Below, piece by piece: positions 3,499-18,316 of a stretch of 64,000 bases of DNA. A program made the translations under genes and the position numbers. Source of the DNA: Psychrobacillus psychrodurans (GTDB taxonomy: Bacteria; Bacillota; Bacilli; Bacillales_A; Planococcaceae). The notes below the pieces were generated by a model. It ran no database searches and was not told the origin of the DNA. It saw only the letters and a list, made by a program, of their open reading frames with translations. Location: assembly GCA_900114885.1 (NCBI GenBank), contig FOUN01000006.1, forward strand, positions 124,001-188,000, given 5' to 3'. Positions within the stretch are counted from its first letter, which is position 1. Each line of letters opens with the position of its first letter.

Positions 3499-3506
3499 AT
3501 TTTAAA

Positions 3507-3537: not shown

Positions 3538-3570
3538 CACATTGAGTTGAAGAATGTACTGTTATTAAAA

Positions 3571-3615
3571 ACATATCCGCTTCTTACTCCAAAATGGAAT
3601 AAGAAGCGGATATGT
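3571..3615. terminator. Strong bidirectional hairpin
   Basis: A 16-bp perfect stem (3571-3586 with 3600-3615) extends into TCC/GGA pairs around an AAAA loop. T-rich DNA lies on the plus side and an A-run on the minus side. It once served the chemotaxis-receptor gene whose remnant lies next to it on the minus strand. Confidence 0.75.
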
Positions 3616-3626
3616 TATTTTGTTTA

Positions 3627-3857
3627 TTAATATTTAAATTGCGAGATTACATCTTTTAGTTCCTGAGCCATGGAAGAAAGAGATTGAGCAGATGCTGAAA
3701 TCTCTTCCATTGAAGCTAGTTGTTCCTCTGCAGAGGCTGCTACTTCTTCTGAAGTTGCCGCATTTCCTTGCGCAAGGATAGCTATATCATTGGCGATATG
3801 AGAAGTTTCCTGAACAGATGCAGATACCTGTTGTGCTGTTGCAGAAACGTCTTCCAT
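3627..3857 (-). pseudogene. Methyl-accepting chemotaxis protein, 3' remnant
   Basis: The last 76 residues match the end of a chemotaxis-receptor signalling domain. They are alanine/serine/glutamate heptads such as AATSEEVAASAEEQ, which is the C-terminal methylation-helix region, ending in ELKDVISQFKY. Complete receptors are usually over 400 aa, with sensor, transmembrane and HAMP parts. None of these can be found upstream, where the DNA becomes AT-rich and unrelated. The gene therefore looks truncated by deletion, leaving its tail and terminator. Confidence 0.8.
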
Positions 3858-3960
3858 TTATGGTGTGTACAATACATGAAATAATAATAATAATGTTATT
3901 ATAATTTTTCATTAAAAGCTGTAGTAAATAAAACTTTAACCATTAGCAATAGTATTATTG

Positions 3961-4074
3961 GTGAAAAAAGACCTAATGATGATTCTTCAAAATCTTGATT
4001 GTTCATGTGAGGGAATGAAAGGAATTGCATTAGTAGGAGCTAATCAAGTGCTCGAGGAAACGGGTATTAATTAG
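3961..4074 (+). CDS. Possible 37-aa ORF, unknown
   Basis: A GTG-started frame encodes about 37 residues (VKKDLMMILQNLDCSCEG... ending LEETGIN) and is followed 30 nt later by a good plus-strand terminator. There is no clear ribosome site. It could be the tail of a lost gene, since its terminator needs a plus-strand transcript, or a real small peptide. I do not recognise it. Confidence 0.25.
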   Translation: MKKDLMMILQNLDCSCEGMKGIALVGANQVLEETGIN

Positions 4075-5680: not shown

Positions 5681-5717
5681 AACCAGTTACCGATATTCAA
5701 TCGGTGACTGGTTTTTC
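5681..5717 (+). terminator. Terminator after SDR gene
   Basis: A 14-nt stem with one mismatch (AACCAGTTACCGAT with ATCGGTGACTGGTT), a 5-nt loop, then TTTCTT. Confidence 0.85.
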
Positions 5718-5749
5718 TTAAAAGATAAGAAAGTATATAAAAAAGCGGC

Positions 5750-5985
5750 ATGAATACTAGGTTTACAGAATTTTGGAATAACACTACTGATTTCCGTTTC
5801 AGGTGGGGTACAAAGGCTAAAAGTGCCACCTCGTGTGGCAACGCCTTCGTGACCAACATCCTGTTGGCCTCCTGGGTGAGAGCTGAACCATCACCGCCTC
5901 TACGGGTGCGTTGTGATGATTCAGCTGCCTCACTCATCCCGCCGGAGTCGCCACCTTTCACTACAATCAATATAAAGTGTAGTTC
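5750..5985. repeat. Dispersed intergenic repeat, copy 1
   Basis: GC-rich DNA bounded by inverted ends (TGATTTCCGTTTCAGGTGG on the left; CCACCTTTCACTACAATCA on the right). Inside, read on the minus strand, is GGCGACTCCGGCGGGA, the hallmark of the element also found near 18.0, 22.7, 38.6 and 55.5 kb. Open frames across it on both strands are not genes. No transposase is present, so it is probably a non-autonomous miniature element or a structured RNA repeat. Confidence 0.65.
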
Positions 5986-6230
5986 TCAACTTGGAGATAA
6001 AGCAAAGCAAATCGCTGAGATACTAAAATTAATCAAAATTTTATAGGGATAAAACTGTCTACTTAGATAGGTATACTATTTTTATCTTGAAAGAAGAAAG
6101 TGGATATTCTTTTATCTGAGTCCATTTCATCTTTATTTTTTTAAAAGATGGCTATGTTAAAATTAATGGTTGATTTTGAATAACAATACGGTCTATCTAC
6201 TACAGACCCCACTTACGTATATCCTTCAAC
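5986..6230. other. Intergenic, no gene seen
   Basis: AT-rich DNA between the dispersed repeat and the first cassette-type repeat. I find no coding frame, strong terminator or promoter worth naming. Confidence 0.5.
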
Positions 6231-6326
6231 CTTGTTCAACTAACCTACTTCGTAGTTATTAAGAAAAGCTACCTTAACAGGCAACTACTGGTTTAACTAA
6301 ACACCCGTTATTTGAGTAAAAATAAT
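6231..6326 (-). repeat. Cassette-type repeat C1
   Basis: Begins TTGTTCAACTAACCTACTTCG and ends ACACCCGTTATTTGAG. It is the leftmost copy of the repeat that separates genes across 6.2-17.9 kb and lies at the 3' side of the GNAT gene. The middle is degenerate and lacks the usual GCTTTACT hairpin. Confidence 0.65.
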
Positions 6327-6346
6327 AATTAAAGTGTAAAACTGGA

Positions 6347-6787
6347 TTACAATGTTTTCCTAAAGGAATAACACCATTTGTCATAGTTTAATTTATCTTC
6401 ATAAAATCGGTGTGCATCACTTCTTTGTAAACCTGACTCTAAAGCTACATACTCTGCACCATTTTCTTTAGCCCAATCATGTATGTACTTTAACAATTTC
6501 TCACCATAACCAAATGATCTTTGAGACACATCAGTTACTAAATCATAAATAAAAATATGACGCTTGTTATAAAAGTTAATTCTCCAACTTAAGCCAACTA
6601 ATGCAACTATTTTATCTTCTACGGACATTGCGTATAGCTTGTATCCATCTTTACTCATATCTTGAAGTAACTCTATGTATGTTTCTTCTGTTAAATCAGT
6701 TCGTAATTGTTTCATAATAGGAAAAGCTTCTAACCACTGTGTGGTATTTGTTAACTCAGATATAGTTTCTAATATAGAATTCGCCAC
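6347..6787 (-). CDS. GNAT family N-acetyltransferase
   Basis: This 146-aa protein has a GNAT fold. The acetyl-CoA binding segment reads VSQRSFGYGEKLLKYIHDWA, followed by ENGAEYVALESG and the RSDAHRFYE motif typical of the family. The acceptor is unknown. The start is GTG 6787, with GGAGG 9 nt upstream. It sits alone between repeats C1 and C2, as one cassette-like unit, and shares no function with its neighbours. Confidence 0.85.
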   Translation of the reverse strand: MANSILETISELTNTTQWLEAFPIMKQLRTDLTEETYIELLQDMSKDGYKLYAMSVEDKIVALVGLSWRINFYNKRHIFIYDLVTDVSQRSFGYGEKLLKYIHDWAKENGAEYVALESGLQRSDAHRFYEDKLNYDKWCYSFRKTL

Positions 6788-6849
6788 AAATCAATTCCTC
6801 CAATTTTTAAAATTCCCTCAAATTGTTCCATCTATTATTGTAATATTTA

Positions 6850-6929
6850 CACTTCAACAAAACTGCCCCTCAAGATCAATAAAAAAGCTTTACACTTTCT
6901 TGAAGTAAAGCACACCTTTAGTTGAATAA
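6850..6929 (-). repeat. Cassette-type repeat C2 with terminator
   Basis: Reads TTCAACAAAACTGCC at the left, contains the hairpin GCTTTAC (6887-6893)/GTAAAGC (6905-6911), and ends ACACCTTTAGTTGAA. On the minus strand the hairpin is followed by a T-run, so the repeat also terminates the 93-residue gene to its right. Confidence 0.75.
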
Positions 6930-6935
6930 CTTCGC

Positions 6936-7217
6936 TTATTTTTGATCCTCAATAGTTTCAATATCACTAAGAAAAATTAAACCTTTTCTTTTTATAGTGT
7001 ATCTTACGAAGTATGTCTTATCTTTCTGAATTAAATTCATTACCCTTGGTTCCCTAACAATTACTTTAATCTCTTCTCGATGTCCCACAGGGGCATTAGG
7101 GTTAAATCCCTTTATCCATGCGTCATTGTTATCGTTAGAATACCCTTTTTCAGTGACAGTAAAATCAGTTACAGTTAACACAGACGAAAAAGAATTATAA
7201 ATTAAAAAAACAATCAA
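6936..7217 (-). CDS. Small membrane-anchored protein, unknown
   Basis: The frame from TTG 7217 gives 93 residues starting inside a hydrophobic stretch (IVFLIYNSF). The same frame stays open further upstream to about 7270 and adds a basic start and more hydrophobic residues (KSKRILLSAITISIAF). The true protein therefore very probably has a full N-terminal membrane helix and begins at a non-standard codon near 7262 behind a GGAAGAGG-like ribosome site. The rest is a soluble domain (EEIKVIVREPRV, TYFVRYTIKRKG). No family is recognised with confidence; a DUF3139-like lipoprotein or anchor is one possibility. Confidence 0.55.
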   Translation of the reverse strand: MIVFLIYNSFSSVLTVTDFTVTEKGYSNDNNDAWIKGFNPNAPVGHREEIKVIVREPRVMNLIQKDKTYFVRYTIKRKGLIFLSDIETIEDQK

Positions 7218-7280
7218 AAAGGCAATAGAAATTGTTATAGCCGATAATAAAATTCTTTTACTCTTGATAAAATTCCTCTT

Positions 7281-7395
7281 CCTTCACTGTCCTGCGACGT
7301 TAGTTTAAGTGTAACATTTCACAATACATATGCGGAATCAACCAAATTTTTTAGACATACAAATAGACCACCGAAATGATAGCTATATTTTGCTA
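7281..7395 (-). repeat. Cassette-type repeat C3, long form
   Basis: Starts CTGTCCTGCGACGTTAGTTT and continues about 100 nt with GTGTAACATTTCACAATAC and AATAGACCACCG. The same extension recurs at 11270-11380, with roughly three quarters of positions alike by eye. The left arm TTCAACTAA is missing or degenerate here. Confidence 0.55.
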
Positions 7396-7722
7396 AAGCA
7401 TCCATTACTATAAGTACATTATCAGTAACACTATCTTTTTACAGATTAATGTCTATTCACTCAATGCTTAATATAGGTTGTTTATTCAAGAAAGACGCTT
7501 TCTTATTAAAGAAAGCGCGCTTTTATGAAATAACTAGAACATTATCTCAGTCTCAAAATTACTTACTTATATTTTCCTAAAGCTCCTTTTTCTTGAATAA
7601 CATTACTTCTAAATGAATAAGTATTATTTTAAAAGTCAGTATCTAAGATGCGTTGCAAAAGAGACATCGATTTAGCATTTAATTCAGTAGTATATATAAG
7701 AACTCCACCGTAATTTCAGCAC
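7396..7722. other. Intergenic, decayed sequence
   Basis: No gene is seen. A hairpin GACGCTTTC/GAAAGCGCGC near 7494-7522 is followed by TTTT on the plus strand and is terminator-like. The rest is AT-rich and probably decayed cassette DNA. Confidence 0.4.
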
Positions 7723-8328
7723 TTATAACGCTTTTCGCTGGTAAATGATATTGGTAAGTCCCCAAGAGATAGCATAGACTATCATGATGCTAAGTGTCGC
7801 TCCTGTATATAAAGACGTGACAGTTAAATTAACAATGAAATCAGTTATTGCATTTAAATGTTCAGTTAAAAACGTGACAATAGCCGGACCTATAGCTGAC
7901 AAAAGGAGAAAGCAAATGAGTACTACCGGAAAAATATAGCCTGGTTTAAATATATAAAATAATGGAAAGGTAAATGCTGCAAATAATAAGAATAAGCCAC
8001 AGCCAATCGCAATGTCAGTCATAGTAAAAGGTTTATTGAAAACCAATAATGTTAGACTAGTCACCCCGATTGCTAAAATCATGTAAATAATAGCACCGAG
8101 GTAGCGTGAAGCGATAATTTCCGTACGTGTATATGGTAAGGAATTTAATAATATGTTTGTTTCTGCTTTTTCATCGTAAGCATATGTGTTAAAGGGAATA
8201 AAAATACTGGCAACGAGAAAAGTAAAAGCTGGGTGTTTACCCATAATAATAAAGAATAAGATAAAAGGAATAAAGAGTAATAGCTGCCTCTTCTGCAGAA
8301 TGACGTCACGTCTGATTAAATTAAACAT
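7723..8328 (-). CDS. ABC-2 type transporter permease
   Basis: This 201-aa integral membrane protein has about six hydrophobic helices and the short N-terminal cytosolic stretch (MFNLIRRDVILQKRQ) seen in ABC-2 permeases. It overlaps the end of the ATPase gene by 8 nt and is the third gene of a GntR-ATPase-permease operon of the YtrA/YhcF layout. Such exporters in Bacillus are linked to cell-envelope antibiotics. The substrate here is unknown. Confidence 0.8.
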   Translation of the reverse strand: MFNLIRRDVILQKRQLLLFIPFILFFIIMGKHPAFTFLVASIFIPFNTYAYDEKAETNILLNSLPYTRTEIIASRYLGAIIYMILAIGVTSLTLLVFNKPFTMTDIAIGCGLFLLFAAFTFPLFYIFKPGYIFPVVLICFLLLSAIGPAIVTFLTEHLNAITDFIVNLTVTSLYTGATLSIMIVYAISWGLTNIIYQRKAL

Positions 8329-9196
8329 GGTGTATTCCTCCTTTCAAATGATACATGATATCTTCCAGAGAGGCACGATCAATGGCAACTGAGTTTCCAA
8401 AGATATTTTGCACTGCTTTAGTATTGTCCGTTAATGCTTCAAATCCTGTTGTTGCACGATGAACATGAATAAATGCCTTTTCAGTATCTCTATCCAGAAG
8501 ATCCAATCTTCCTTTAACGATGGCATAGTTCTCAGCAACGTCGTGAATTGACTGATTAAATACTAATTCGCCACTCTGCATAAAAGCTATATAATCTGCG
8601 ATACGATCTAAATCTGTTGTAATATGCGTTGAGAAGAAAATAGTTCGATTTCCATCAATCATTAATTCTTGTAAAATGCCCAACAGTTCTCGTCTAAAAA
8701 TGGGGTCTAAACCTGCTGTTGGCTCGTCCATAATGATTAGTTCTGCATGATGTGATAGTGCTATCGCCAATGACGCCTTCATTTGCATCCCTTTTGAGAA
8801 AGTTTTTATTGCTTTATTAAGTGGTAATTCGAATTTTTCGATATATTGATAAAATACTTTATCATCCCAGTGTTTGTATGCTGGTGCTACAATCCGCTTT
8901 ATATCTTTCATGTTTAGCCCTTCAAAAAACACATTGCCATCATACACAAATCCAATGCGTTCCTTAATCGCCTTCTCATGTTTCTTGTAATCCAACCCGA
9001 AAAGCTTAATTTCCCCAACATCTGGTCTTAAGAGATTCATCATCATTTTTATCGATGTCGATTTACCAGCACCATTTGCTCCAATGAATCCCGTTACAAA
9101 GCCTTGCTTCACTTGTAAATCAATATTTTTTACCGAAAAATCTTTAAACTTTTTCGTTACATTTGTAAATTCAACCACATTCTCCATTCCATTCAC
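8321..9196 (-). CDS. ABC transporter ATP-binding protein
   Basis: This protein of about 288-291 aa has Walker A GANGAGKST near residue 40, the signature-like FSKGMQMKAS, Walker B LIIMDEPTAGLDP and a switch-histidine region (FFSTH). The domain is followed by a roughly 70-residue C-terminal tail typical of ABC-2 exporters. The frame opens at a GTG overlapping the GntR stop; ATG 9187, three codons in and 8 nt after GAGGGG, is the better start. It is translationally coupled to both neighbours and energises the 201-aa permease. Confidence 0.9.
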   Translation of the reverse strand: MNGMENVVEFTNVTKKFKDFSVKNIDLQVKQGFVTGFIGANGAGKSTSIKMMMNLLRPDVGEIKLFGLDYKKHEKAIKERIGFVYDGNVFFEGLNMKDIKRIVAPAYKHWDDKVFYQYIEKFELPLNKAIKTFSKGMQMKASLAIALSHHAELIIMDEPTAGLDPIFRRELLGILQELMIDGNRTIFFSTHITTDLDRIADYIAFMQSGELVFNQSIHDVAENYAIVKGRLDLLDRDTEKAFIHVHRATTGFEALTDNTKAVQNIFGNSVAIDRASLEDIMYHLKGGIHHV

Positions 9197-9564
9197 CCCT
9201 CATATAAAATCTTTAATAAGTCCTGCAGCTCATCAAGTGACAGTCCAATTTCTCTGCTATTTGTTATGACTGCACTGAGTTGCTCCTCAATGACCTTCAG
9301 CTTCTTCTCTCTTATAACCTCTAGATTTTGCTCCGCAACAAAAGACCCTTTTCCGACAATGGAATATATAAAGCCCGCCTTCTCCAATTCCTCATAGGCA
9401 CGCTTCGTCGTTATAACGCTAATTTGAAGTTCCTTTGCGAGGTTACGCATAGAAGGTATTGTTGCACCCTCCTGTAGTTCACCTGCTAAAATAAGCGATT
9501 TAATTTGACTGGTAATTTGTTCATAAATCGGTTCCTTTGAACTGTTGGAAATAATTATTTGCAT
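9193..9564 (-). CDS. GntR family regulator, YtrA subgroup
   Basis: This 123-aa protein has an N-terminal winged helix (EPIYEQITSQIKSLILAGEL...SMRNLAKELQISVITTKRAYEEL, residues about 10-75) and only a short helical tail. That is the YtrA-type architecture that accompanies ABC exporters. It starts at ATG 9564 with AAGAGG about 8 nt upstream and is the first gene of the operon, so autoregulation is expected. TAATAACGT (9640-9648) and its inverse ACGTTATTA (9683-9691) lie in the leader and are candidate operator halves. Confidence 0.88.
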   Translation of the reverse strand: MQIIISNSSKEPIYEQITSQIKSLILAGELQEGATIPSMRNLAKELQISVITTKRAYEELEKAGFIYSIVGKGSFVAEQNLEVIREKKLKVIEEQLSAVITNSREIGLSLDELQDLLKILYEG

Positions 9565-9973
9565 GCCAATACCTCTTCTTTACTTTTTTGAAAACATACT
9601 TTACAAAATGTCCTGTACCTCTTGCTTAAAACAGTATAGTAATAACGTGAATTGTCATCGAAGACCTTGCATATAATCACTTACGTTATTATATAATGTA
9701 TATATACTATATTCACATTATACACACATAACAAACACCCGTGCAACCACTTTATTTGAAATTGCAGAAAATTTTATATTATACAGTTATAAAGCAATAG
9801 AATAGAAACCTGAACAAGCATATTTACAATAAAGTATCAACTATCTAAAAGATGTTATAGTATTCATTTCTAACTATTTGATTGAATTACCACCGTCTGT
9901 TTTGAAATAACAAATAGAAAGAGCTTGTTTTGATAAAAGACTTATCAATACATGCTCTTAAGATTTAAAAGTT
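9565..9973. promoter_or_regulatory. Leader of GntR-ABC operon
   Basis: No gene is seen. A 9-bp inverted pair, TAATAACGT (9640-9648) and ACGTTATTA (9683-9691), and an AT-rich palindromic tract around 9690-9712 probably hold the operon promoter and the GntR operator. The left half, to about 9970, is featureless. Confidence 0.4.
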
Positions 9974-10060
9974 ATGGAACTACGTCAAGATTCTGGACAC
10001 AAAAGTATACCGCACAATACGGCAAGATACAAAGCATGGCGTAATCTACTTGAACCTCAC
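9974..10060 (+). pseudogene. Possible integrase C-terminal fragment
   Basis: A short plus-strand frame reads MELRQDSGHKSIPHNTARYK followed by AWRNLLEPH. The LRQDxGHKSI...TARY pattern resembles the C-terminal box of tyrosine recombinases (LGHxSIxTTxxY), with the last Tyr as nucleophile. It is only about 29 residues and is cut by the IS110 remnant, so this is a tentative call. Confidence 0.3.
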
Positions 10061-10610
10061 TTAGTAATAAGATTGGTTGTAGCAGTGAACTTTCCGGATG
10101 AGTGAACACTGGGATCTACTCCTGCAAAGGCAACCAGTTTTTTGGGATGACTAAACCGATCGATTTCACCAATCTCAGAGATGATCGTGGCAGCGATTTT
10201 TTCTCCGACTCCTGGAATCGATTGGACAATCCTGTAATCTTCTAATTCATTTGCCAAGGTCACTATACGAATTTCCAACTCTGAAAGATGTCCTTGTTAC
10301 TGAAAAAGCATTTCAATATACATTTGAAGGTTGATCAAGTGACTGTGATACACCACTTTTTGAAATGGATTTCGAGATGCGGAATCCATTAATTTTTTTG
10401 CCTTTTCCAATGCCCATAGACTAGACCTTCTTGGACAAAACTCCATCACACATTCCGCTAGTACATCTTCTGAAGAAGGATTTCCTCTGACTTCACTCAC
10501 CAGTACCCCTATTCCTCCATGAAGTATCATAGCTTCGCTTGTTATACGAGATCTATGTCCCAACCAGCCTTAAACATGTTTCTACAAGTAAGGGTGGACA
10601 GTTTAGTTCA
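10057..10610 (-). pseudogene. IS110 family transposase, broken
   Basis: Two frames on the minus strand belong to one IS110-type transposase. The piece at 10297-10563 has a central helical region. The piece at 10057-10278 has the transposase_20 helix-hairpin-helix region (SIPGVGEKIAATIISEIGEI, then LVAFAGVDPS and SGKF). They are separated by a stop and frame change near 10280-10297. The N-terminal RuvC-like DEDD domain and the end after ITK are missing, so the element is dead. It interrupts the cassette region. Confidence 0.85.
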
Positions 10611-10677
10611 CGGGATCATAGTCCCATGCACCCGTACGTCCTACCCTGGCTACTGATATATTAAATCCTATAAAAAT

Positions 10678-10710
10678 AAGGTCAACCAGTAAAATAAACT
10701 GGTTAACCTT
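10678..10710 (-). terminator. Terminator after DUF1569 gene
   Basis: A 13-bp stem with one mismatch (10678-10690 with 10698-10710) and a 7-nt loop is followed on the minus strand by TTATTTTTAT. Confidence 0.65.
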
Positions 10711-10720
10711 ATAATACGAA

Positions 10721-10750
10721 GTACCCGTTAGTGAAAAGTCTCCGCTTTGG
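10721..10750 (-). repeat. Cassette-type repeat C4, partial
   Basis: Only the right-hand end of the repeat (TACCCGTTAGTGAAAAG) is recognisable at the 3' side of the DUF1569 gene. The left part is probably lost with the IS110 insertion. Confidence 0.4.
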
Positions 10751-10754
10751 TTTA

Positions 10755-11204
10755 CTAAACACCAAACTGTTTTAAATGATGATCAAGGTGCTTATAAATT
10801 CCTTTTCCCCATTCCTCGGAAGTAAGTTTACCGAAAAAAGGATGTGGATGATTTGTACACTTCTGTGGTCCATTACTTTGAAATGTTATAATTTTTTGTT
10901 TTAGTTTTTTCTTTTCTGTTTCAAATTCTTTTTCATCTACAATCAAAATAGTAGGGATTGTTGACATGTTTTTCGCTAAGGGCTTGTCATTATATAAAAT
11001 TGGTTTCACAAACTTCCCAATTAATATCCCTAACCAACCTCTCGGAGGAAAAGCATTTCCCATTGCAATGTCTTGAAAAGATGAACAATGTGCCAGCATT
11101 TTGGCAACATCCATTTTACCCCACTGCGGTTTTGAATCTCGGGTTAAATTGTCAATTCGGTTTAAAATTTCCTCTGCGTGCGATTGATTAAAAATATCCT
11201 TCAT
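10755..11204 (-). CDS. DUF1569 protein (DinB-like fold)
   Basis: This 149-aa protein matches DUF1569: WGKMDVAKMLAHC near residue 28, then GWLGILIGKFVKP and the C-terminal HPFFGKLTSEEWGKGIYKHL with DHHLKQFGV. Histidines at the MLAHC, HPFF and DHHL positions could bind metal, as in related DinB-like four-helix proteins. Function is unknown. It starts at ATG 11204 with AAAGGGGG 8 nt upstream. It is a stand-alone gene between C4 and C5. Confidence 0.85.
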   Translation of the reverse strand: MKDIFNQSHAEEILNRIDNLTRDSKPQWGKMDVAKMLAHCSSFQDIAMGNAFPPRGWLGILIGKFVKPILYNDKPLAKNMSTIPTILIVDEKEFETEKKKLKQKIITFQSNGPQKCTNHPHPFFGKLTSEEWGKGIYKHLDHHLKQFGV

Positions 11205-11249
11205 CTTTGTGCCCCCTTTGCATATTTATTACCACATGTCCCTAAATGA

Positions 11250-11380
11250 AATTTCAACTAACCTGCCGCTTTAGTTTAAGTGTAACATTTCAAAATGCAT
11301 ATCCGAGAACAACTTAATATTTTGGACATAAAAATAGACCATCGTAATAATTTCTATATTTTTCCAAAGTATCCATTAGC
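11250..11380 (-). repeat. Cassette-type repeat C5, long form
   Basis: The core TTTCAACTAACCTGCCGCTT pairs with TTAGTTTAAG, followed by the same roughly 100-nt extension seen in C3 (GTGTAACATTTCAAAATGC, AATAGACCATCG, ATCCATTAG). Confidence 0.7.
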
Positions 11381-11392
11381 TTAATAAGCCTT

Positions 11393-12187
11393 TTATGTAT
11401 TAGATAGACTTTCATTTTCCAATTCAACTTCCTGATTGCAATACTCAACATAAAGTAATTTCATTGCTTCAATAATTATTTCATCTGCTAATTTCTCTTT
11501 ATATCGATTTGGTAACTCCTTTGCACCCAAAACAAATAATAATGGATTTTTAGAAAACTCACCCATTATCCCAATATCAACTACTACATTATCTAATCCG
11601 CCAGTCATATGATTTAAGAAATGGCTTGGTATTCCTTCTATATCACCTCGTTGCCTAACTAAACCATTAATAACTGGAATCCATAAATCAGGATTAGTTT
11701 TGTATCCTTGATGTATTAATTGTAAAAGTTCTAACATCTCACTCAATTCTCCATTGTTGTCCAAGTCTCTTGGATTTTGAGTAATATTTATGCTTTTAAA
11801 ATATGATTTTATTCTATTCTTAACCCTTTCCCATCCACCACAAAATTGAACAACTCTCTCTGCGACAAAGCTATCGTGACAGGCAATCATAACTTCCACC
11901 GCATCTTGGAGTGCCAAGTTTTCTCTACTTTGAAAGTGAGGATACACTTCGTTGCTATCTTCTTCTGGATTTAAAATTACATCATCAACAATGTCAGTCC
12001 ATTTATAGTGTCTTTCTTCAACCAATTTTGCAATACAAAAGGCAATAGCAATTTTTGCAGCAGAAGCAAGAGGTACTAATAGCTCTTTATTTAATGAAAG
12101 TACTATATCCTGTTTTACTTGAGAATAAATAATAATTCCAACTTCACCCGACTTTAGTTCCTCCAATTTTTCAAGAACTTTCTCCAT
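11393..12187 (-). CDS. Serine hydrolase, class A beta-lactamase-like
   Basis: This protein of about 264 aa has an SxxK motif in PLASAAKIAIAF near residue 43, which is the nucleophile/general-base pair of penicillin-binding enzymes. HDSFVAE downstream could be the SxN-equivalent region. There is no signal peptide or lipobox, unlike secreted beta-lactamases, so a cytosolic esterase or peptidase-like role is as likely as antibiotic resistance. A frame from GTG 12205 exists, but ATG 12187 behind TGGGGTTCGGAA fits better. It is one cassette-like unit between C5 and C6. Confidence 0.7.
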   Translation of the reverse strand: MEKVLEKLEELKSGEVGIIIYSQVKQDIVLSLNKELLVPLASAAKIAIAFCIAKLVEERHYKWTDIVDDVILNPEEDSNEVYPHFQSRENLALQDAVEVMIACHDSFVAERVVQFCGGWERVKNRIKSYFKSINITQNPRDLDNNGELSEMLELLQLIHQGYKTNPDLWIPVINGLVRQRGDIEGIPSHFLNHMTGGLDNVVVDIGIMGEFSKNPLLFVLGAKELPNRYKEKLADEIIIEAMKLLYVEYCNQEVELENESLSNT

Positions 12188-12243
12188 TTCCGAACCCCAC
12201 TTCACAGTATTTTTCTATTCACTTGTTCTCTCTGTAAACTTGT

Positions 12244-12346
12244 CCTTGTTCAACTAAACTGCCCAGTTAGTAAGACAAAAGAGTTCCCTAAGCAAGCAAC
12301 CCTATGATTTTTACTAAAGCACACCGTTAGTTTAAGAATAATTCAC
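12244..12346 (-). repeat. Cassette-type repeat C6
   Basis: The left module TTGTTCAACTAAACTGCC with AGTTAGTAAG is followed by a diverged middle and the right end AAAGCACACCGTTAGTTTAAG at 12316-12336. The GCTTTACT hairpin is not intact. Confidence 0.75.
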
Positions 12347-12465
12347 AACCTAAACCGATTTCTTTAAAAAAGGTCTCTGTTAAATTATATTGTTAATTTC
12401 AGATAACTGTTTATATATGTTAAGATTCGGGATATAACAGCTGATGAAATAAGGGGAGAGAAATA

Positions 12466-12879
12466 TTGGAAGCAAAGAAAAAATTTTTAATAGAACTTCA
12501 CAGTATCATTAAAGAACGTTCAATGATTGGAAATCTAATTAGTAACCCTCCACTAGATTCCGTTTTGGAAGAATTTAATTTAACAGTTACAGAATTAAAT
12601 GCTTTAAAGGCTCAACAATTTACTCCTGAAAGTATTAGTGGCATTGAAAAGATTGTACGTGATAATCTAATGACGACGTTTTTTGAAGTGTTTTGTATAC
12701 TTGATGGAGTTGGCGACCCTAATGAATCATTCTCATTAATGGAACCAGATGAAGTATGGCTTGGGTTAAAGTTAACCGAGGTTGAATACAACGAAGAAGA
12801 GGAAGAAGTAACAGAGTTCTTACACGACGAATTCTTTAGTACATATCAGGAATGGAAAGAATTGCAAAGAAAGAACTAA
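12466..12879 (+). CDS. Unknown acidic protein, reversed in array
   Basis: This 137-aa protein begins at TTG 12466 behind AAGGGGAG. It has no membrane segment or signal. The N-terminal half is helical (LIELHSIIKERSMIGNLI), and the C-terminal half is rich in Glu (NEEEEEVTEFLHDEFF). I do not recognise a family; small acidic proteins of this kind are often immunity or regulatory proteins, but nothing here proves it. It is the only plus-strand intact gene inside the cassette region, between C6 and C7, and lacks its own terminator. Confidence 0.6.
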   Translation: MEAKKKFLIELHSIIKERSMIGNLISNPPLDSVLEEFNLTVTELNALKAQQFTPESISGIEKIVRDNLMTTFFEVFCILDGVGDPNESFSLMEPDEVWLGLKLTEVEYNEEEEEVTEFLHDEFFSTYQEWKELQRKN

Positions 12880-12928
12880 TCTTTTCAAAGAAAACATATG
12901 ACTTTAAAATTTCATAAAAGTTCCAATT

Positions 12929-13016
12929 GTTGTTCAACTAATCTGCTGCTTTAGTTCAATAAGAAAAAAGGCTTTACTCCTTCTTGAAGCAAAGCACACC
13001 ATTAGTTGAAGAAGAA
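12929..13016 (-). repeat. Cassette-type repeat C7, full form
   Basis: One of the most complete copies: TTGTTCAACTAATCTGCTGC with TTAGTTCAATAAG, then a GGCTTTACTCC...GCAAAGC hairpin and ACACCATTAGTTGAAGAAG. Read on the minus strand, the hairpin plus TTTTTTCTT is an intrinsic terminator. Confidence 0.85.
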
Positions 13017-13117
13017 AAATGATGCTTTAATCAATAATCGCTCCCGATTGTGGCAAATGTATTTAATATTTGTTATAGCCATGCTCTGGAAGTAACAGTG
13101 AAAAAGAGATGACATTA

Positions 13118-13393
13118 TTATAAATTTGAACTCCTTGAGATAGCTCCAATAACAGTACCTACCCATGTTCCTACTAAAATAGTAACCGTAAATAAACCCA
13201 GTCCCATACCTTCCCAACCACCCACTCCAATTACGCTATAAATAATTACCCCGATACAAATTAGACTTAATACAGTAGAGGTGGAAAATAAATATTTTCT
13301 TGAAACTTTACGGGATGTAATAAACATCCCAAATGCAAACACAATTCCGCAAAGCAATATAGGAGTCCATCCCTCTAACATCAAAGCATCCAT
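13118..13393 (-). CDS. YesK-like small membrane protein
   Basis: This 91-aa protein has three hydrophobic helices, a short basic loop (SRKVSRKYLF) and the glycine-rich GVGGWEGMGLG before the last helix. The pattern resembles the Bacillus YesK family, whose role is unknown. The ATG at 13393 has a perfect AGGAGG 8 nt upstream. It lies between C7 and C8 with no co-transcribed partner. Confidence 0.7.
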   Translation of the reverse strand: MDALMLEGWTPILLCGIVFAFGMFITSRKVSRKYLFSTSTVLSLICIGVIIYSVIGVGGWEGMGLGLFTVTILVGTWVGTVIGAISRSSNL

Positions 13394-13491
13394 TTAATTA
13401 CCTCCTGTTATGTTTTTCCACAAACTGATCCAATTGTTTTTGTTTAAAAATTTACATATATTAACTTATTCAACGTAATCGCAAAAAAACC

Positions 13492-13569
13492 TTCTTCTTC
13501 AACTAAACTGCCGAGTTAGTACAATAAGAAAAGGCTTTACTCCTTCTTGAAGTAAAGCACACCGTTAGC
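13492..13569 (-). repeat. Cassette-type repeat C8, full form
   Basis: TTCAACTAAACTGCCGAGTT precedes AGTACAATAAG, then the hairpin GGCTTTACTCC...AGTAAAGC and ACACCGTTAG. A second small hairpin (GCAGCA/TGCTGC) follows at about 13576-13597. Confidence 0.85.
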
Positions 13570-13766
13570 CATCCATGCAGCACAAAAAAATGCTGCACCA
13601 CAGAGGATGAAAATGGTTAGGAAGTGTTATATACTGATATTAACCTTAATCCAGTCAACCGTAATCCATAGACTTATTTACGCTCTCCTCTTTTTTTAAC
13701 GATTAAGTAGGGGTCTTCTTAGTATTGTCATTTTTCATTTCTTGAAGAACTAATTTTCATGGGAGT
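13570..13766. other. Intergenic, no gene seen
   Basis: Apart from the GCAGCACAAAAAAATGCTGC hairpin at its left end, I see no gene or signal. It may be a decayed cassette. Confidence 0.4.
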
Positions 13767-13979
13767 TTAAGAAGAATTTTTTCCTTCTTTCTTCTGTTTC
13801 TTCCTGTAAAAAAAACGCCATATATAAAAGATAGTCCAAAACACGAATAAAGGAATATACTGATAGTTTTGTTCACCATAATATATAATTATAATTCCTA
13901 TAATAAGCGTTGGTACAGCCAAATAAAACCACATTCTTACTTCCTTGTTTTTAAAACTTAATTCAAATCGTTCACTCAT
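13767..13979 (-). CDS. Small two-helix membrane protein, unknown
   Basis: About 70 aa from ATG 13979, which follows GGGGTGG; the ATG three codons earlier has no better site. Two hydrophobic helices (WFYLAVPTLIIGIIIIYYG and YIPLFVFWTIFYIWRFF) are followed by a very basic tail (YRKKQKKEGKN), which suggests both termini lie inside the cell. No family is recognised. It is a single gene between C8 and C9. Confidence 0.6.
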   Translation of the reverse strand: MSERFELSFKNKEVRMWFYLAVPTLIIGIIIIYYGEQNYQYIPLFVFWTIFYIWRFFYRKKQKKEGKNSS

Positions 13980-14078
13980 ATACTCCACCCCGTTTATAAC
14001 TTTCTTTTACTACGTTTGAAACAAATTGAGGTTCCTATTTTCGTAATTTTCCTATTTTTATTAAACAAAATCCATTTT

Positions 14079-14165
14079 CTTGTTCAACTAAACTGCTTCT
14101 TTAGTTCAATAAGAAAAAAGGCTTTACGTCCTTCTTAAAGAAAAGCACCCTTGAGTTCAAGAAGA
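14079..14165 (-). repeat. Cassette-type repeat C9, full form
   Basis: TTGTTCAACTAAACTGCTTC with TTAGTTCAATAAG, then GGCTTTACGTCCTTCTTAAAG with AAAAGC and GAGTTCAAGAAG. The minus-strand hairpin plus T-run terminates the gene to its right. Confidence 0.85.
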
Positions 14166-14175
14166 GTAACTTATA

Positions 14176-14433
14176 TTATTTCTTTTTATTAGGATAAATT
14201 AAGTTATTTTCAACAAATATCCTACAGTTAATTTTAAAAAACCCACCCAAAGCTACTTTAATACTTTTTCTATCGTCATTACTTTTTAGTTCACCATTTA
14301 ATACAGCTCTTACAGCAAGTCCAAGATTTTCATCCTGTAATTGTCCGTTTACATATAGTTTTTCACCTGTAAACCAGCTGTTCACCACTTTAATATGGTA
14401 ACCATCGTGCATAACTTCAAATGTTTTTTTCAT
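14176..14433 (-). CDS. Hypothetical 85-aa protein
   Basis: A short soluble protein with a beta-rich look: FEVMHDGYHIKVVNSWFTGE, KLYVNGQLQDENLG and VALGGFFKINCRIFVENNLI. It has an excellent start, ATG 14433 behind AGGAGG. It resembles small conserved Bacillus proteins of unknown function; I cannot name a family. It lies between C9 and C10, and its stop is only 10 nt from C9. Confidence 0.6.
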   Translation of the reverse strand: MKKTFEVMHDGYHIKVVNSWFTGEKLYVNGQLQDENLGLAVRAVLNGELKSNDDRKSIKVALGGFFKINCRIFVENNLIYPNKKK

Positions 14434-14481
14434 ATTGAACTTAACCTCCTAAAAGTATCTTCAAGTAAAAATATTAAATTT

Positions 14482-14530
14482 CCTTGTCAAACTTTCCTGC
14501 TGCGTTAGTAAAAACACACCCTTTGTCTAT
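14482..14530 (-). repeat. Cassette-type repeat C10, degenerate
   Basis: TTGTCAAACTTTCCTGCTGC with GTTAGTAAAAACACACCC. Both arms are worn, and the hairpin is absent. Confidence 0.5.
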
Positions 14531-14579
14531 AATTCTATTAAGTTGGCAATAATCCTTTTAATATTACTATATTAGGGGG

Positions 14580-14880
14580 AATGCAATTGTTACTGTCAAA
14601 AGCATGGTCTTCGTTTGAAGCGGATACACCTTAGTATTTAACTGAGCGGGAGATTGAACACCTTCGTGAGTCCTGTCATTCTGCTATTGAAAAAGCGATA
14701 TTTGAATTCATGTTTTCTACAGGTTGTCGAATTGGAGAAATAGTTTAGTTAGAAAAGAACCATAAATTGGTCCAATCAATCTGCAATCGTGAGAGAGACG
14801 CTTCTTAAAACAATCGTGCCCGATTGTCGAACATATTCAACTATTTGCCCCGTTTGTATAAGAGTGACTGTATCTTTCGA
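14580..14880 (+). pseudogene. Tyrosine recombinase/integrase remnant
   Basis: The plus-strand translation reads MQLLLSKAWSSFEADTP, stop, YLTEREIEHLRESC, then AIFEFMFSTGCRIGEIV, stop, and after a frame change INWSNQSAIVRE. The STGCRIGEI block, with its Arg, is box I of tyrosine recombinases, preceded by the expected helix. NWSNQSAIVR matches the beta-strand that normally precedes the GKGxKER turn. In-frame stops and a frameshift show the gene is dead, and box II (HxxR and Tyr) is lost. It is the only recombinase trace clearly inside the cassette-like region. Confidence 0.75.
14811..14826. repeat. Short palindrome CAATCG-TGCC-CGATTG
   Basis: A perfect 6-bp inverted repeat around TGCC. Related copies are at 13036-13049 (AATCG-CTCC-CGATT) and 15611-15627 (CAATAAGAGCCCGATTG). 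All three lie inside the cassette region, near but outside the C repeats. Confidence 0.5.
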
Positions 14881-14897
14881 AATAATTCCTTAGTAAA

Positions 14898-15512
14898 TTA
14901 ACCGAATTCACATAAACTTGATATTACAAACTCAGGAAGAGTTTTTGTTATATTTTCATAAGTTGAAAAGTACGATTGATTTGAAAGAACATCAATACTG
15001 TTCCCATCGTGACCAATCACAAAAATACTCATATCTACTTTTGGCTCGATGACCATTGTTTTTTGAACATAACCTTTCGATTTTCCTCCCCATTCCCTTT
15101 GTTCAACACTAAAGACATCCTCTTCTGTACTCCAAACAACAGTACTCCCTACGCATCCAAGTGTAATGCAAAAAGGAAAAGTTGTTAAAAGTTGCTCTAT
15201 ATCTTGAATCTTTGCGACAGATACGGACGATTTCTTATCCTCTGTTAAGTAGCGATTTTCAATCTGCGATGTATTTAAAATCTCTTCATACTCATTCTTG
15301 AGGAAGGAATCAATATCCGCATAAAAATAGAGAGGAAATGCTTTAATATTATCCATCCAGCTAGGCACAAAATTATCATCACACTTTGGTAAATAAACCC
15401 CTACTGACAATACATAAGGAAATGTATTATCTACTGCAAATGGAAAATGTCCGTCCTCATCTTGTGTAAACTCACGATATCTATTTGGTAAATATCCAAT
15501 AGAAATATTCAA
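14898..15512 (-). CDS. Unknown soluble protein, 204 aa
   Basis: A TTG-started frame (AAAGAGG 7 nt upstream) encodes a protein without signal peptide or membrane helices. It contains aromatic-rich stretches (FPYVLSVGVYLP, FPLYFYADIDSF) and a beta-rich C-terminal half (GYVQKTMVIEPKVDMSIFVI). I do not recognise the family. It lies between the recombinase remnant and C11. Confidence 0.55.
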   Translation of the reverse strand: MNISIGYLPNRYREFTQDEDGHFPFAVDNTFPYVLSVGVYLPKCDDNFVPSWMDNIKAFPLYFYADIDSFLKNEYEEILNTSQIENRYLTEDKKSSVSVAKIQDIEQLLTTFPFCITLGCVGSTVVWSTEEDVFSVEQREWGGKSKGYVQKTMVIEPKVDMSIFVIGHDGNSIDVLSNQSYFSTYENITKTLPEFVISSLCEFG

Positions 15513-15648
15513 TTTAAAACCTCTTTCTGTCAGTTACTTTAAGTAGAAATCTTCACAATCTCTTCTAAAATGTAACATAGATATCCAACTTTCTTTAAGG
15601 TGTTTTGCGGCAATAAGAGCCCGATTGTTGAACACCAGTTAAACATCA

Positions 15649-15745
15649 CACTTAAACTAACCTGCCGCTTTAGTTCAATAAGAAAAAAAGCTTTACTCCT
15701 TCTTGAAGTAAAGCCCTCGTTAGTTTAAGTGTAACTCTTCACAAA
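15649..15745 (-). repeat. Cassette-type repeat C11, full form
   Basis: TTAAACTAACCTGCCGCTTT with AGTTCAATAAG, the hairpin GCTTTACTCC...AGTAAAGC, then CTCGTTAGTTTAAGTGTAAC, the extension shared with C3, C5 and C13. Confidence 0.85.
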
Positions 15746-15858
15746 GTTACAATATATTTGTGTTAGTTAATAAGCAACTTATGTTTGAAATTTTACGAAG
15801 GTTTAGATACATATAACTTAATAAAGAGAGAAGTAAATACTTCTCTCTTTATTATATA

Positions 15859-17070
15859 TTATTCTAACTCAGTCGTTTTCCTAAATAAATCCTGTTTCTT
15901 TAAAGCCATAATACTAACTATTGCAAGTAAAATACCAGAAAGAATAAAAACACTACGAACACCGAAATAATCAGAAACAATACCCGTTGTTAGTGAGGCA
16001 ATTCCAAACGTGCCTGTTCCAATAGTGCCAAGAGAAGTATAAACAGTTGCTAATTGGTCTTTGGGTACGCTTGTTTGAATTAATGTTTGTTGAGGTATAT
16101 TTTTCAATTGTCCAAAAAGCCCAATTAGGGCGGATAGCACCATTGCGATTACAGGGAAACTCGTCAATCCAAATACAACCGTAAAAATGCACGTCATAAT
16201 CGCTCCTGTAATGATAAAAACATGCCGTTTATTATCTACAAGTAAGGAAAACTTAATGCACAATAAACTTCCTACTACTAAGCCTATAAAAAAAGCTGCA
16301 TTAATATAACCCCACCAATATTCTTGTGCCTTTAGTGCCTGCTCGACATAAACCAATATTATCGCTGCTATCCAAACGGATCCAGCAATAGTTTCAAAAA
16401 AATCCATACAGACCACTGTTTTTAATAACGGTGTCCGTTTAATAGTTTGCCATCCTTTTGTTAATTGAGACCATTTTTTTTCTTGTCGTTCTTCTTTGTG
16501 CTCTACATTTTTTAACAAACTTAAGATAATGCTAGAAAAAACAAATAGTACAGTAACTATCCATATAAGTTGGTATGGATTGAATACAATCAACAGCATA
16601 CTTCCAAAAAACCAAGTCCCTATTTGGATAGACTGAGTAACTGTTTCTGCTACTCCGTTTGCTTTTACTAAGCTGTCCTCCTGTACATAATGAGGAATTA
16701 AAGTCTGTCTTATTGGATTGGCACAACCATCAAGAAGAGCAATCAAACCAATCACGACAAATATGAATATATAGTTACTTGAATCAAACGCTGTCATCAA
16801 AAAAATTCCTAAGCCAAATAAAAATAATGTTTTTCCTATTTGTGAACCAACTAATAAATGTTTCAAATTATACTTGCCAATTAGCAGTGGTGTTAAAATA
16901 CTTGAAATAAACATAGAAAAAGTAATGGTAAACGGAACGAAAGCTGATGCGGTTGCTGACTCGGTTAAACTGTATATAACGCTAATAACACCGACAATGT
17001 ACAACACATCACCTATATTAGCTAATGATTGACCAATCATTAAAAAAAGAAAATTACGATTTGATTTCAA
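15859..17070 (-). CDS. MFS transporter, MFS_3-like exporter
   Basis: This 403-aa protein has about 12 hydrophobic helices and the short N-terminal MKSNRNFLFLMIGQSLANIG typical of the MFS_3/macrolide-exporter group. It probably exports a drug or small metabolite by proton antiport; the substrate is unknown. The start is TTG 17070 after GGGGGAT. It is the largest single-gene unit of the cassette region, between C11 and C12, and has no linked regulator. Confidence 0.85.
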   Translation of the reverse strand: MKSNRNFLFLMIGQSLANIGDVLYIVGVISVIYSLTESATASAFVPFTITFSMFISSILTPLLIGKYNLKHLLVGSQIGKTLFLFGLGIFLMTAFDSSNYIFIFVVIGLIALLDGCANPIRQTLIPHYVQEDSLVKANGVAETVTQSIQIGTWFFGSMLLIVFNPYQLIWIVTVLFVFSSIILSLLKNVEHKEERQEKKWSQLTKGWQTIKRTPLLKTVVCMDFFETIAGSVWIAAIILVYVEQALKAQEYWWGYINAAFFIGLVVGSLLCIKFSLLVDNKRHVFIITGAIMTCIFTVVFGLTSFPVIAMVLSALIGLFGQLKNIPQQTLIQTSVPKDQLATVYTSLGTIGTGTFGIASLTTGIVSDYFGVRSVFILSGILLAIVSIMALKKQDLFRKTTELE

Positions 17071-17241
17071 TATTATCCCCCGTTTTTTTCTAAATTGTCT
17101 GAAAAATGAGGGGGTGTTAAATTGGACTATTATGCATGAAACTTCGCCCCTTTATGTACGCAGTATGACAAAAATCACTGGGGGGATAACGTGACTTATC
17201 ATTTTACGTTTGAATATTAACCAGATTGCACCTTAAATCTT

Positions 17242-17276
17242 TATTAAACTAAACTGCCCGCATTAGTTGAAGAAGA
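17242..17276 (-). repeat. Cassette-type repeat C12, minimal form
   Basis: Only the core palindrome is present: TTAAACTAA-ACTGCCCGCA-TTAGTTGAAG. It has no embedded terminator. This copy shows the smallest conserved unit, two 9-nt inverted arms around a roughly 10-nt centre. Confidence 0.8.
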
Positions 17277-17780
17277 TTATTTTTTTATTTTTAAGAGGTA
17301 TACTTTCAAAATTTCTACTTTTACGTCTTCCTCCATTTGCTCATCATCTCTAACTTCTTCAAGCAGAAATCCATCGTGATATGGAAATCCTAGAAACTCC
17401 TCAATAATAGGCTCAAGTTTATGTATAACTTCGATTTCACACCCGAATAGTATGTTAGTGTCATAATCTGATATCAAACTAAACTTGATTTGTGCAGATT
17501 GCCAATCAAACCATATATAAAAAAGCATTCCATCTGGATTATTTGAACATCTAATTTGCTCAAGTCTATTCGTCATCACTCTGCGGAAAAAATCCATGAA
17601 ATCTTCCACTACTATCTCAGTCGCTAATTCCTTGCTAATAGACATTGACCAAGTGTTGTTTGCTGTTTCTTCGGCTATGTCTTGCATACTATCACCAAAA
17701 AACAAAGAGTCAACAACTATTTCTTCAAGGGATTGAAAAAACTCATTTTTATCCATGATTTCTTCTTCTACAAATCGCAT
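17277..17780 (-). CDS. Unknown acidic cytosolic protein
   Basis: A 159- to 167-aa acidic protein, with no membrane or signal segments. Its stop abuts C12. ATG 17756 (MDKNEFFQSLEE) follows a GAAGAAG-like site and may be the true start rather than ATG 17780. Segments such as DGMLFYIWFDWQSAQIKFSL and a charged C-terminus (VRDDEQMEEDVKVEILKVYL) give no family I can name. SMI1/immunity-type proteins can look like this, but the evidence is too thin. Confidence 0.5.
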   Translation of the reverse strand: MRFVEEEIMDKNEFFQSLEEIVVDSLFFGDSMQDIAEETANNTWSMSISKELATEIVVEDFMDFFRRVMTNRLEQIRCSNNPDGMLFYIWFDWQSAQIKFSLISDYDTNILFGCEIEVIHKLEPIIEEFLGFPYHDGFLLEEVRDDEQMEEDVKVEILKVYLLKIKK

Positions 17781-17803
17781 TTAATAAGATTTATTTTCTA
17801 CTT

Positions 17804-17852
17804 CTTGTTCAACTAAACTCCTTCGTTAGTTTAAGTGTAAACCTTCACTAAC
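17804..17852 (-). repeat. Cassette-type repeat C13
   Basis: TTGTTCAACTAAACTCCTTC with GTTAGTTTAAGTGTAAACC. This rightmost copy lacks the hairpin. It lies just upstream of the 167-aa gene, so the gene is bracketed by C12 and C13. Confidence 0.75.
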
Positions 17853-18015
17853 TTTTCCTTGTTTTAACACAAATATCCAGTTAAGTGAATATACTATAAA
17901 CTGATGTAAGGTATGTGTCAACATACCATTCACTATAAATCAACCTTTACCTTTAACATAGTCTAAAACATAAAACACGCATTTCGGTGGTTTTATACCT
18001 AATTATCCGATTATA
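17853..18015. other. Intergenic, no gene seen
   Basis: AT-rich spacer between the end of the cassette-like region and the dispersed repeat. No gene or clear signal. Confidence 0.4.
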
Positions 18016-18018
18016 TAA

Positions 18019-18158
18019 AGTCGATCTAGTTGATTGGAGCGTAGAGCGGCGACTCCAGTGGGAACAGCACGAGCTGAAGACCCTGGACTGAGCAGCGCGA
18101 GGGAAGCGGCTGAAGCCGTGCCCACGGAAAGCGTCCGCTATCAGCGGAAATCAACGGC
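18019..18158 (+). repeat. Dispersed intergenic repeat, copy 2
   Basis: Ends TTGATTGGAGCG and CGGAAATCAACGG are imperfectly inverted. The interior reads GGCGACTCCAGTGGGAACAG, AGCTGAAGACCC and GTGCCCACGGAAAGCGTCCG, the fullest version of this element here. It is GC-rich against its surroundings. The open frames in it are not genes. Confidence 0.75.
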
Positions 18159-18316
18159 ATATCTACATTATAAATTTTATATAGGACCGGGCGTCTTTTA
18201 CCTGGTTTTTCTTTAATTTGAAATTTGACCTGTATTTTTAACATATAAATTTGTACAATGTGGAGGAAGTTTCACCTCTAGTAACGAATCATAAGGAAAG
18301 GGGAGTGTTTGTTTTT

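Follow-up and report, generated by a model that had tools for sequence, protein, structure and literature searches.

The genome of Psychrobacillus psychrodurans (assembly GCA_900114885.1, contig FOUN01000006.1) contains a locus in which a short sequence recurs between mostly single genes with unconnected products, and the question it raises is what kind of repeat this is and whether the genes between its copies move with it. The window analysed here is a 64-kb stretch of that contig (positions 124,001 to 188,000; coordinates below are window positions), and its repeats were compared with those of related genomes. All evidence is comparative, the compared pairs are not independent and some DNA was counted twice under two locus names. 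Here, we report that the repeat is part of a large system. The locus is probably an integron-like gene cassette array of Bacillales, in which a dedicated Xer-like recombinase, here called int, would recombine double-stranded dif-like core sites.

The initial annotation of the window counted about 13 copies of one repeated core. The repeat is real: the pattern TTCAACTAA-N9-TTAGTTGAA had 10 matches in the window at up to three mismatches, all within 6900–17834, whereas 100 shuffled sequences gave a mean of 0.15 and a maximum of 2, and none reached 10. That count did, however, mix two related core types of 25–28 bp each, R and L, which often occur as L-R pairs. When the minus strand was read by eye, 12 R-type and 10 L-type cores were recognized between 6235 and 17834, several of them degenerate. 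The R core has the pattern CTAACG-NNGCAG-KTTAGTTGAA (consensus TTGAACTAACGNNGCAGKTTAGTTGAA) and the L core the pattern CTAACGGGTGC-TTTAGT (consensus CTAACGGGTGCTTTAGTTCAA). Within a pair, core starts are about 50–110 nt apart and the L-to-R spacer is often about 20–80 nt long.

Position-weight matrices for both types gave 326 R and 220 L cores at a score of at least 10 in 757 kb and none of either in the reversed sequence, an enrichment that is partly circular since the matrices, which allowed no gaps, were trained on the same loci (the first arrays). The reversed-sequence control was also zero in each of 45 later loci, this being the part of the 78 int loci covered by the matrix analysis. The distance from CTAAC to TTA was 8 nt in 609 of 612 measured R cores and 7 nt in 419 of 428 L cores, a narrow spread that is partly an artefact of the gapless matrices, which failed to detect several 8-nt L cores of the window. 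A search of Rfam yielded no family for the core site; its one weak match on a site, to MIR7993 (30.7 bits, gathering score 100), was rejected as due to chance. The bcr1–18 repeats of Bacillus cereus (PMC6542083) were considered as possible relatives of the core.

The segments between cores behave as units. The longest open reading frame lay on the core strand in 549 of 667 cassettes, on the opposite strand in 100, and was absent in 18, while consecutive R cores were on the same strand 728 times and on different strands 57 times (n = 785). Neighbours were compared over 971 distinct R-core contexts and 683 cassettes, the cassette comparisons covering lengths of 200–4000 or 200–4500 bp. The comparison yielded 103 homologous cassette pairs. 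The largest family, of 13 members (7 of them with the int leader motif), accounts for 47, every one of which differs on both sides. The other 56 pairs differ on both sides in 46 cases and on one side only in 4; both sides are the same in 4 and one side was left unjudged in 2. Counted by family, 33 of the 42 outside the largest hold a pair with both neighbours different, and the three families in which neighbours were only the same came from two genomes that are about 98% identical (G153 and G158). This is the variation between cores that the initial annotation had anticipated.

Four window cassettes have relatives with other neighbours, found in the same genome, in Sporosarcina limicola, in another genome of the genus together with Solibacillus palustris, and in Peribacillus frigoritolerans. 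The YesK-like cassette at 13118–13393 has a homologue on contig C37 of its own genome (89.8%), the serine hydrolase cassette at 11393–12205 one in S. limicola (93.4%), and the cassette at 6936–7217 matches the other genus genome at 96.6% and S. palustris at 95.4%. Insertion beside the recombinase gene is seen in a comparison of three loci. The cassette immediately after int in L070 is separated from int in L102 by a gene of 112 aa that has an L-R site of its own. Likewise, the cassette immediately after int in L071 is separated from int in L070 by about 2.5 kb containing several cores. Homologous stretches that lack the int leader motif end at cores in both copies at 196 starts and 265 ends of 1477, where about 0.12% would be expected, although these counts are not independent and include some DNA twice. 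From such comparisons, cassettes appear to move one by one.

The position at which homology changes was mapped with copies of the same segment found in different places at no less than 92% identity, int modules included, which provided 40 pairs at 5′-side and 115 at 3′-side R cores. At the 3′ R core the left arm agrees between copies (0.94 against a background of 0.30 at offset -3, 0.76 against 0.55 at offset 4), agreement drops in the centre (0.53 against 0.34 at offset 6, 0.48 against 0.39 at offset 7) and past the centre it is about background (0.42 against 0.43 at offset 12, 0.46 against 0.32 at offset 22). At the 5′ R core the left arm and early centre are near background (0.17, 0.35 and 0.35 at offsets -3, 6 and 7) and agreement climbs thereafter, to 0.65 against 0.43 at offset 12, 0.78 against 0.34 at offset 19 and 0.93 at offset 22. 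A similar picture was obtained at a minimum of 88% identity with the largest family excluded (19 and 5 pairs). The left arm thus stays linked to the gene before it and the right arm to the gene after it, the R centre is largely tied to neither, and the switch is located within about 15 nt inside a core of 25–28 bp. The arms change in the same manner at L cores (65 and 34 pairs). A centre that reliably accompanies neither side is expected if two staggered cuts leave it mixed.

Taken as a whole, the sites gave no sign of selection for hairpin folding. Over 438 natural sites the summed pairing of L and R arms was the same in native and shuffled combinations (8.80 and 8.83 for inner arms, 6.32 and 6.30 for outer arms), and among 16 position pairs tested within single R cores the largest z was 3.1. 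The crossover map, the lack of overall L/R covariation and the exchange at both core types favour double-stranded dif-like sites over attC, and on this point, as in its recognition of a cassette array, the initial annotation is supported. Folding of the attC kind had been a first idea, taken from the L-spacer-R anatomy, and was dropped after the covariation test and the crossover map.

The recombinase carried by the arrays, int, is an Xer-like tyrosine recombinase of 279–280 aa. A survey of the best 80 of 93 homologues distinguished clade A (77–98% identity), present in Psychrobacillus, Sporosarcina, Lysinibacillus, Solibacillus, Viridibacillus, Litchfieldia, Metabacillus, Neobacillus, Domibacillus, Jeotgalibacillus and others, from clade B (57–66% identity) of Peribacillus, Robertmurraya, Cytobacillus, Heyndrickxia and others. 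In clade A most R cores were opposite the int strand in all 16 loci of one set and all 32 of a second (a few loci being the same DNA), which bears out the co-occurrence of a tyrosine recombinase with arrays that the initial annotation had proposed to check. An R core lies 76–82 nt upstream of the int start in 24 of the 32 loci and, by matrix, an L core 58–73 nt beyond the int end in 14. In clade B, 10 of 13 loci have R cores, with the majority on the int strand in all 10, and 3 have none. As judged by eye, the int module of either clade is mostly flanked by an L core and an R core, with int reversed in clade A and forward in clade B; the module is kept as a unit from L to R while its flanks differ, and genomes hold several int copies or pieces.

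By profile, int scored 219.5 bits against XerA (NF040815, cut-off 220), 203.2 against XerD (329.6), 199.7 against XerC (335.15) and 56.2 against NF011946 (435); the integron integrase profile TIGR02249 gave 88.4 bits in two stretches (cut-off 265). The best matches in the PDB were XerA-like 4a8e and XerD 1a0p, and IntI4 (2a3v) matched residues 197–267 only. In a small tree int was placed apart from three Xer-like proteins of the same genome. Across 17 aligned int proteins, the residues that we take to be catalytic in tyrosine recombinases (Arg, Lys, His, Arg, His, Tyr) vary little or not at all, Tyr 263 of the aligned protein being the putative nucleophile. An AlphaFold model (mean pLDDT 68.9, much of the C-terminal part below 50) was too weak and was left unused. 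A further tree group of 280-aa proteins (L083, L085–L088, L122 and L124; 54–64% identity) comes without recognisable arrays nearby: four of five loci had no R match (L083 had two), nor had L122 and L124, and a search of the core-free int loci L085, L087 and L122 for cores of another kind brought no array-like family to light.

These comparisons are consistent with a mechanism in which int would recombine short double-stranded cores, mainly R with R and L with L, with strand exchange on either side of a centre of about 7 nt. The unit would usually be one gene with an L-spacer-R tail, the tail often including a terminator. It would leave as a circle and enter at another core, including the R core 5′ of int, and the int gene would itself be a module, mostly between an L and an R core. 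Comparison directly reveals the cores and arrays, their association with int, the changes of neighbours and the homology switch within cores; the roles of int as the enzyme, of circles as intermediates and of double-stranded exchange, together with the manner of cassette expression, are what we infer from this pattern. It is fairly likely that the whole is an independently evolved platform, with a Xer-derived recombinase in a module of its own that reshuffles genes, terminators and itself between R cores (8-nt centre) and L cores (mostly 7-nt centre). If so, R-by-R and L-by-L exchange would carry the gene together with its terminator, and L-by-R exchange would remove the terminator and leave a single core.

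Several observations weigh against this interpretation. Among 200 family genomes, 14 with at least 11 R matches had, by eye, int fragments or none among the matches listed; examples of R-rich genomes without an intact int among those matches are G072 (128), G005 (121), G068 (76), G120 (46) and G169 (46). Conversely, clade-B int also occurs without cores nearby. The L centre is too conserved to resolve exchange, and the R centre has a partly one-sided excess, at 3′ offset 6 and 5′ offset 12. At 38 ends and 13 starts an L core stood in for an R core or the reverse despite their differing centres, a finding hard to accommodate in the double-strand model. Among the 25 L/R position pairs, one was about 3.5 standard deviations above the shuffles, with another well below. 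Of the five insertions or deletions examined between G153 and G158, four were something other than cassette events; the remaining one, 2.5 kb long, had a core on one side only. Many of 302 candidate junctions, two of which were examined closely, were not at cores or were due to site similarity. The gain and loss of genes one at a time at these borders, expected by the initial annotation, finds its support in the changes of neighbours and in the L102/L070 insertion, and little in the two closest genomes, where few such differences fall at cores.

A difference between L198 and L201, considered as a cassette event, was rejected as a deletion inside a gene. A 2.5-kb insertion in L202 (11981–14519, compared with 8742–8747 of L199) has a core at its right end and an AT-rich, half-site-like target at its left, and may represent the use of non-core targets.

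Other explanations have to be set against the same data. A true integron, with an IntI-type integrase acting on a bottom-strand attC fold, would account for an attC-like anatomy in which outer and inner arms of the L and R halves pair, the spacer stays unpaired and the loop varies, and also for the attI-like core beside int and the clade-A int gene opposite most cores. We nevertheless regard it as improbable, since the arm pairing equals that of shuffled combinations in sum, L cores exchange too, an L core 30–130 nt upstream is lacking at 480 of 887 strong R cores (by matrix, which misses variant L cores), and int falls far short of the TIGR02249 cut-off and matches IntI4 over a short stretch only. 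Slightly less credible is a tyrosine-recombinase transposon of the form L-int-R with MITE-like L-spacer-R derivatives scattered between resident genes. The int module is indeed conserved from L to R between different flanks, and short L-R elements resemble internal deletions of it. Such a transposon would be expected to leave the same gene context with and without the element, and this was not seen: gene-bearing segments without the int leader motif likewise end at cores in both copies, the change of neighbours involves the gene and not the element alone, and gene and site are present or absent as a single unit. Cores and genes, moreover, are mostly all on the same strand.

Shuffling by homologous recombination between dispersed repeats, with no dedicated enzyme, would fit repeats that are many and alike and arrays that persist in genomes with int fragments or none among the matches listed. 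The confinement of the switch to about 15 nt and the presence of intact int inside arrays of many genera speak against it, and we give it a small chance. Least plausible is that the repeats are ordinary terminators next to unrelated genes, the case named at the outset as one that would overturn the cassette interpretation. Four window L-R spacers do carry terminator-like stems, and 18 terminator-like sites were counted in 6100–18000 where 5.0 were expected; the spacer or stem is missing at many cores, however, the core is the best-conserved part and genes change neighbours at cores, which already contradicts a plain terminator.

Most knowledge of cassette arrays comes from IntI integrons, which have been studied best in Gram-negative bacteria. 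In pdif modules, on whose dif-type sites host XerC and XerD act, adjacent sites alternate in orientation. The Bacillales array resembles a chromosomal superintegron in being long, mostly on one strand and composed mostly of single unrelated genes, each with a recombination site. As in an integron, the recombinase gene is part of the array and, in clade A, has a core 5′ of it, cassettes are inserted beside it, single-gene cassettes mostly share one orientation, and an array and a cassette are borne on plasmids; the R core upstream of clade-A int and the L102/L070 insertion have the marks of an attI-like site, from which clade B differs. Unlike the integron, its recombinase is Xer-like, its sites show no overall sign of hairpin selection with exchange at both core classes, and int stands mostly between two cores, on the cassette strand in clade B, with several copies or pieces per genome. 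The system works like an integron and departs from it in two tested features, the IntI type of the recombinase (by score) and hairpin selection. One report names Firmicutes among the phyla with reported integrons (PMC8618304), and another describes the involvement of the bottom strand in attC recombination (PMC2117344).

The other close concept is that of the Acinetobacter pdif modules, described as bounded by short Xer-type sites and clustered in islands on plasmids and chromosome (PMC12907356). The Bacillales modules are likewise clustered and bounded by short Xer-type sites, and they differ in the dedicated recombinase encoded inside the arrays, in cores that are mostly co-oriented and do not alternate, in numbers of up to 233 pattern matches per genome, and in their host group. 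XerA, XerC, XerD and XerH are the closest sequence relatives of int, and the core is close in size to dif, given as 28 bp (PMC3025954). From host XerC and XerD, int differs in its scores far below the family cut-offs (335 and 330) and in having many sites, not one. The system looks like a separately evolved counterpart of integrons, and, if our interpretation is true, it would add a third kind to the gene-capture systems represented by IntI integrons and XerCD pdif modules, suggesting that cassette capture can arise from Xer recombinases without folded attC sites. A dedicated Bacillales cassette system would also be a little-noticed route of gene flow, and its cores would offer a way to find uncharacterised accessory genes. 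No description of such arrays was found in the open-access literature, which is weak evidence of absence as subscription papers were mostly outside that scope.

In the family, 109 of 200 genomes had at least one R-pattern match, and the reversed pattern gave 0 or 1 per strand and genome. All 31 family genomes chosen by eye for an int match of at least 79% identity had R matches (1 to 233). Among 299 genomes of the class (28 of them of the family), 31 had an R match, with mostly none or one outside the family and a largest count of 12. One site was matched by 5 of 72,556 plasmid records. In Sporosarcina psychrophila, int and an array are carried on a 266-kb plasmid, and a 6-kb MobV plasmid has one ASCH-gene cassette with its site. 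In virus collections the exact R pattern occurred in 2 stretches and int was not found; all 1121 phage matches to int were below 60% identity, the best among those listed being 36%.

On the 6-kb Sporosarcina plasmid with the MobV relaxase, the ASCH-domain gene is followed by a complete L-R site (L090:96–671), which makes the plasmid a possible cassette vehicle. A subgroup of IS110 elements targets integron attC sites. On the Sporosarcina plasmid with int at L089:10001–10840, an IS110-family transposase gene (6992–8194) lies between the L and the R core of one site (L089:6827–8452).

The window array itself consists of about 11 units. Of the ten bounded open reading frames, Pfam recognized GNAT, DUF1569, Beta-lactamase2-family serine hydrolase, YesK and MFS proteins and gave no match for five, in agreement with the unconnected products and orphans of the initial annotation, and nine of the ten are on the minus strand, as had been stated. 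That inventory had overlooked a three-gene unit, an IS110-type remnant and a degenerate recombinase. The features are as follows, the minus strand being the cassette strand.

5717..18201, no strand: full extent of the inserted stretch, set against the empty site of relatives, including repeat elements at both edges (homology limits against G078)
17808..17834, minus: R core, first in cassette-strand reading order (pattern match and by eye)
17277..17780, minus: cassette gene, 167 aa, without Pfam match
17244..17271, minus: R core, one base longer (by eye)
15859..17070, minus: cassette gene, MFS transporter (PF07690, 85 bits)
15703..15728, minus: L core (by eye)
15679..15702, minus: L-to-R spacer, forming a terminator-like stem together with the L core (stem 15718–15686)
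15652..15678, minus: R core (pattern match and by eye)
14898..15512, minus: cassette gene, 204 aa, without Pfam match
14587..14817, plus: degenerate recombinase (int), on the opposite strand to the cassettes (tblastn)
14487..14513, minus: R core, degenerate, 5′ side of the int remnant, attI position (by eye)
14176..14433, minus: cassette gene, 85 aa, without Pfam match
14135..14160, minus: L core (by eye)
14083..14109, minus: R core (pattern match and by eye)
13547..13573, minus: L core, 8-nt spacer variant (by eye)
13498..13524, minus: R core (pattern match and by eye)
13118..13393, minus: cassette gene, YesK-like (PF14150)
12984..13010, minus: L core (pattern match and by eye)
12933..12959, minus: R core (pattern match and by eye)
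12466..12879, plus: cassette gene in reverse orientation, 137 aa, without Pfam match
12309..12335, minus: L core (pattern match and by eye)
12249..12275, minus: R core (pattern match and by eye)
11393..12205, minus: cassette gene, serine hydrolase, Beta-lactamase2 family (PF13354, 65.5 bits)
11360..11385, minus: degenerate L core of a long (about 105-nt) site (extent by eye)
11253..11279, minus: R core (pattern match and by eye)
10755..11204, minus: cassette gene, DUF1569 (PF07606, 31 bits)
10711..10737, minus: L core, followed by the IS110-family remnant on the cassette strand (extent by eye)
7723..9564, minus: three-gene unit in the array (ABC permease, ABC ATPase, GntR regulator)
7386..7412, minus: degenerate L core of a long site (by eye)
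7282..7309, minus: R core, degenerate (by eye)
6936..7217, minus: cassette gene, 93 aa, without Pfam match
6900..6926, minus: L core (pattern match and by eye)
6853..6879, minus: R core, degenerate (by eye)
6347..6787, minus: cassette gene, GNAT acetyltransferase (PF00583, 47.7 bits)
6292..6316, minus: degenerate L core (by eye)
6235..6261, minus: degenerate R core, last in the array (by eye)

Comparison with relatives that lack the array shows that about 12.5 kb was inserted here, repeat elements on either edge included. Compared with G078, homology stops near 5716 on the left and restarts near 18202 on the right, and the flank anchors are 376, 162, 173 and 148 bp apart in G117, G078, G057 and G004 against 12,667 bp in the window; with its flanks adjacent in relatives, the stretch was inserted in the window genome. 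The genus has 18 other genomes, and in a further 12 of these a more distant piece of the left flank (window 3000–3540) lies at most 0.9 kb from the right flank, so that, by the matches listed, the array is absent from the locus there also, and the fixed flanks foreseen at the outset are borne out. Of the remaining genomes, G068 has a short left-flank piece only and G087 none.

The window array is old and partly decayed, and its int is a remnant, comprising residues 1–13 and then those from 105 on, with internal stops; the leader 5′ of it, near 14487–14513, resembles that of intact int modules. In the same genome a 15-nt core was found 29 times at no more than one mismatch and the R pattern 62 times. 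Seventeen stretches of this draft genome were read, and of the array int the draft showed broken or partial copies only, none seen intact. In integrons a cassette promoter, Pc, lies in the integrase module; here promoter-like sites numbered 48 in 6100–18000 where 51.0 were expected, and the leader of the int module is conserved. PADLOC gave no match among the ten window cassette proteins.

Further int pseudogene pieces lie on the same contig about 37–44 kb before the window (G000:C27:80156–86704), which suggests another decayed array. The IS110/IS116-family transposase within the window array, at 9976–10600 after the L core at 10711–10737, is degenerate and was recognized as one open piece (PF02371, 63.6 bits). 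At the left edge of the inserted stretch, 5801–5867 matches the Rfam family Bacillaceae-1 RNA (61.7 bits, gathering 35), and at its right edge 18042–18143 gave a below-threshold match to tsr24 (30.2 bits, gathering 50). The otherwise empty site of G117 holds a G+C-rich stretch that looks similar to window 18042–18143.

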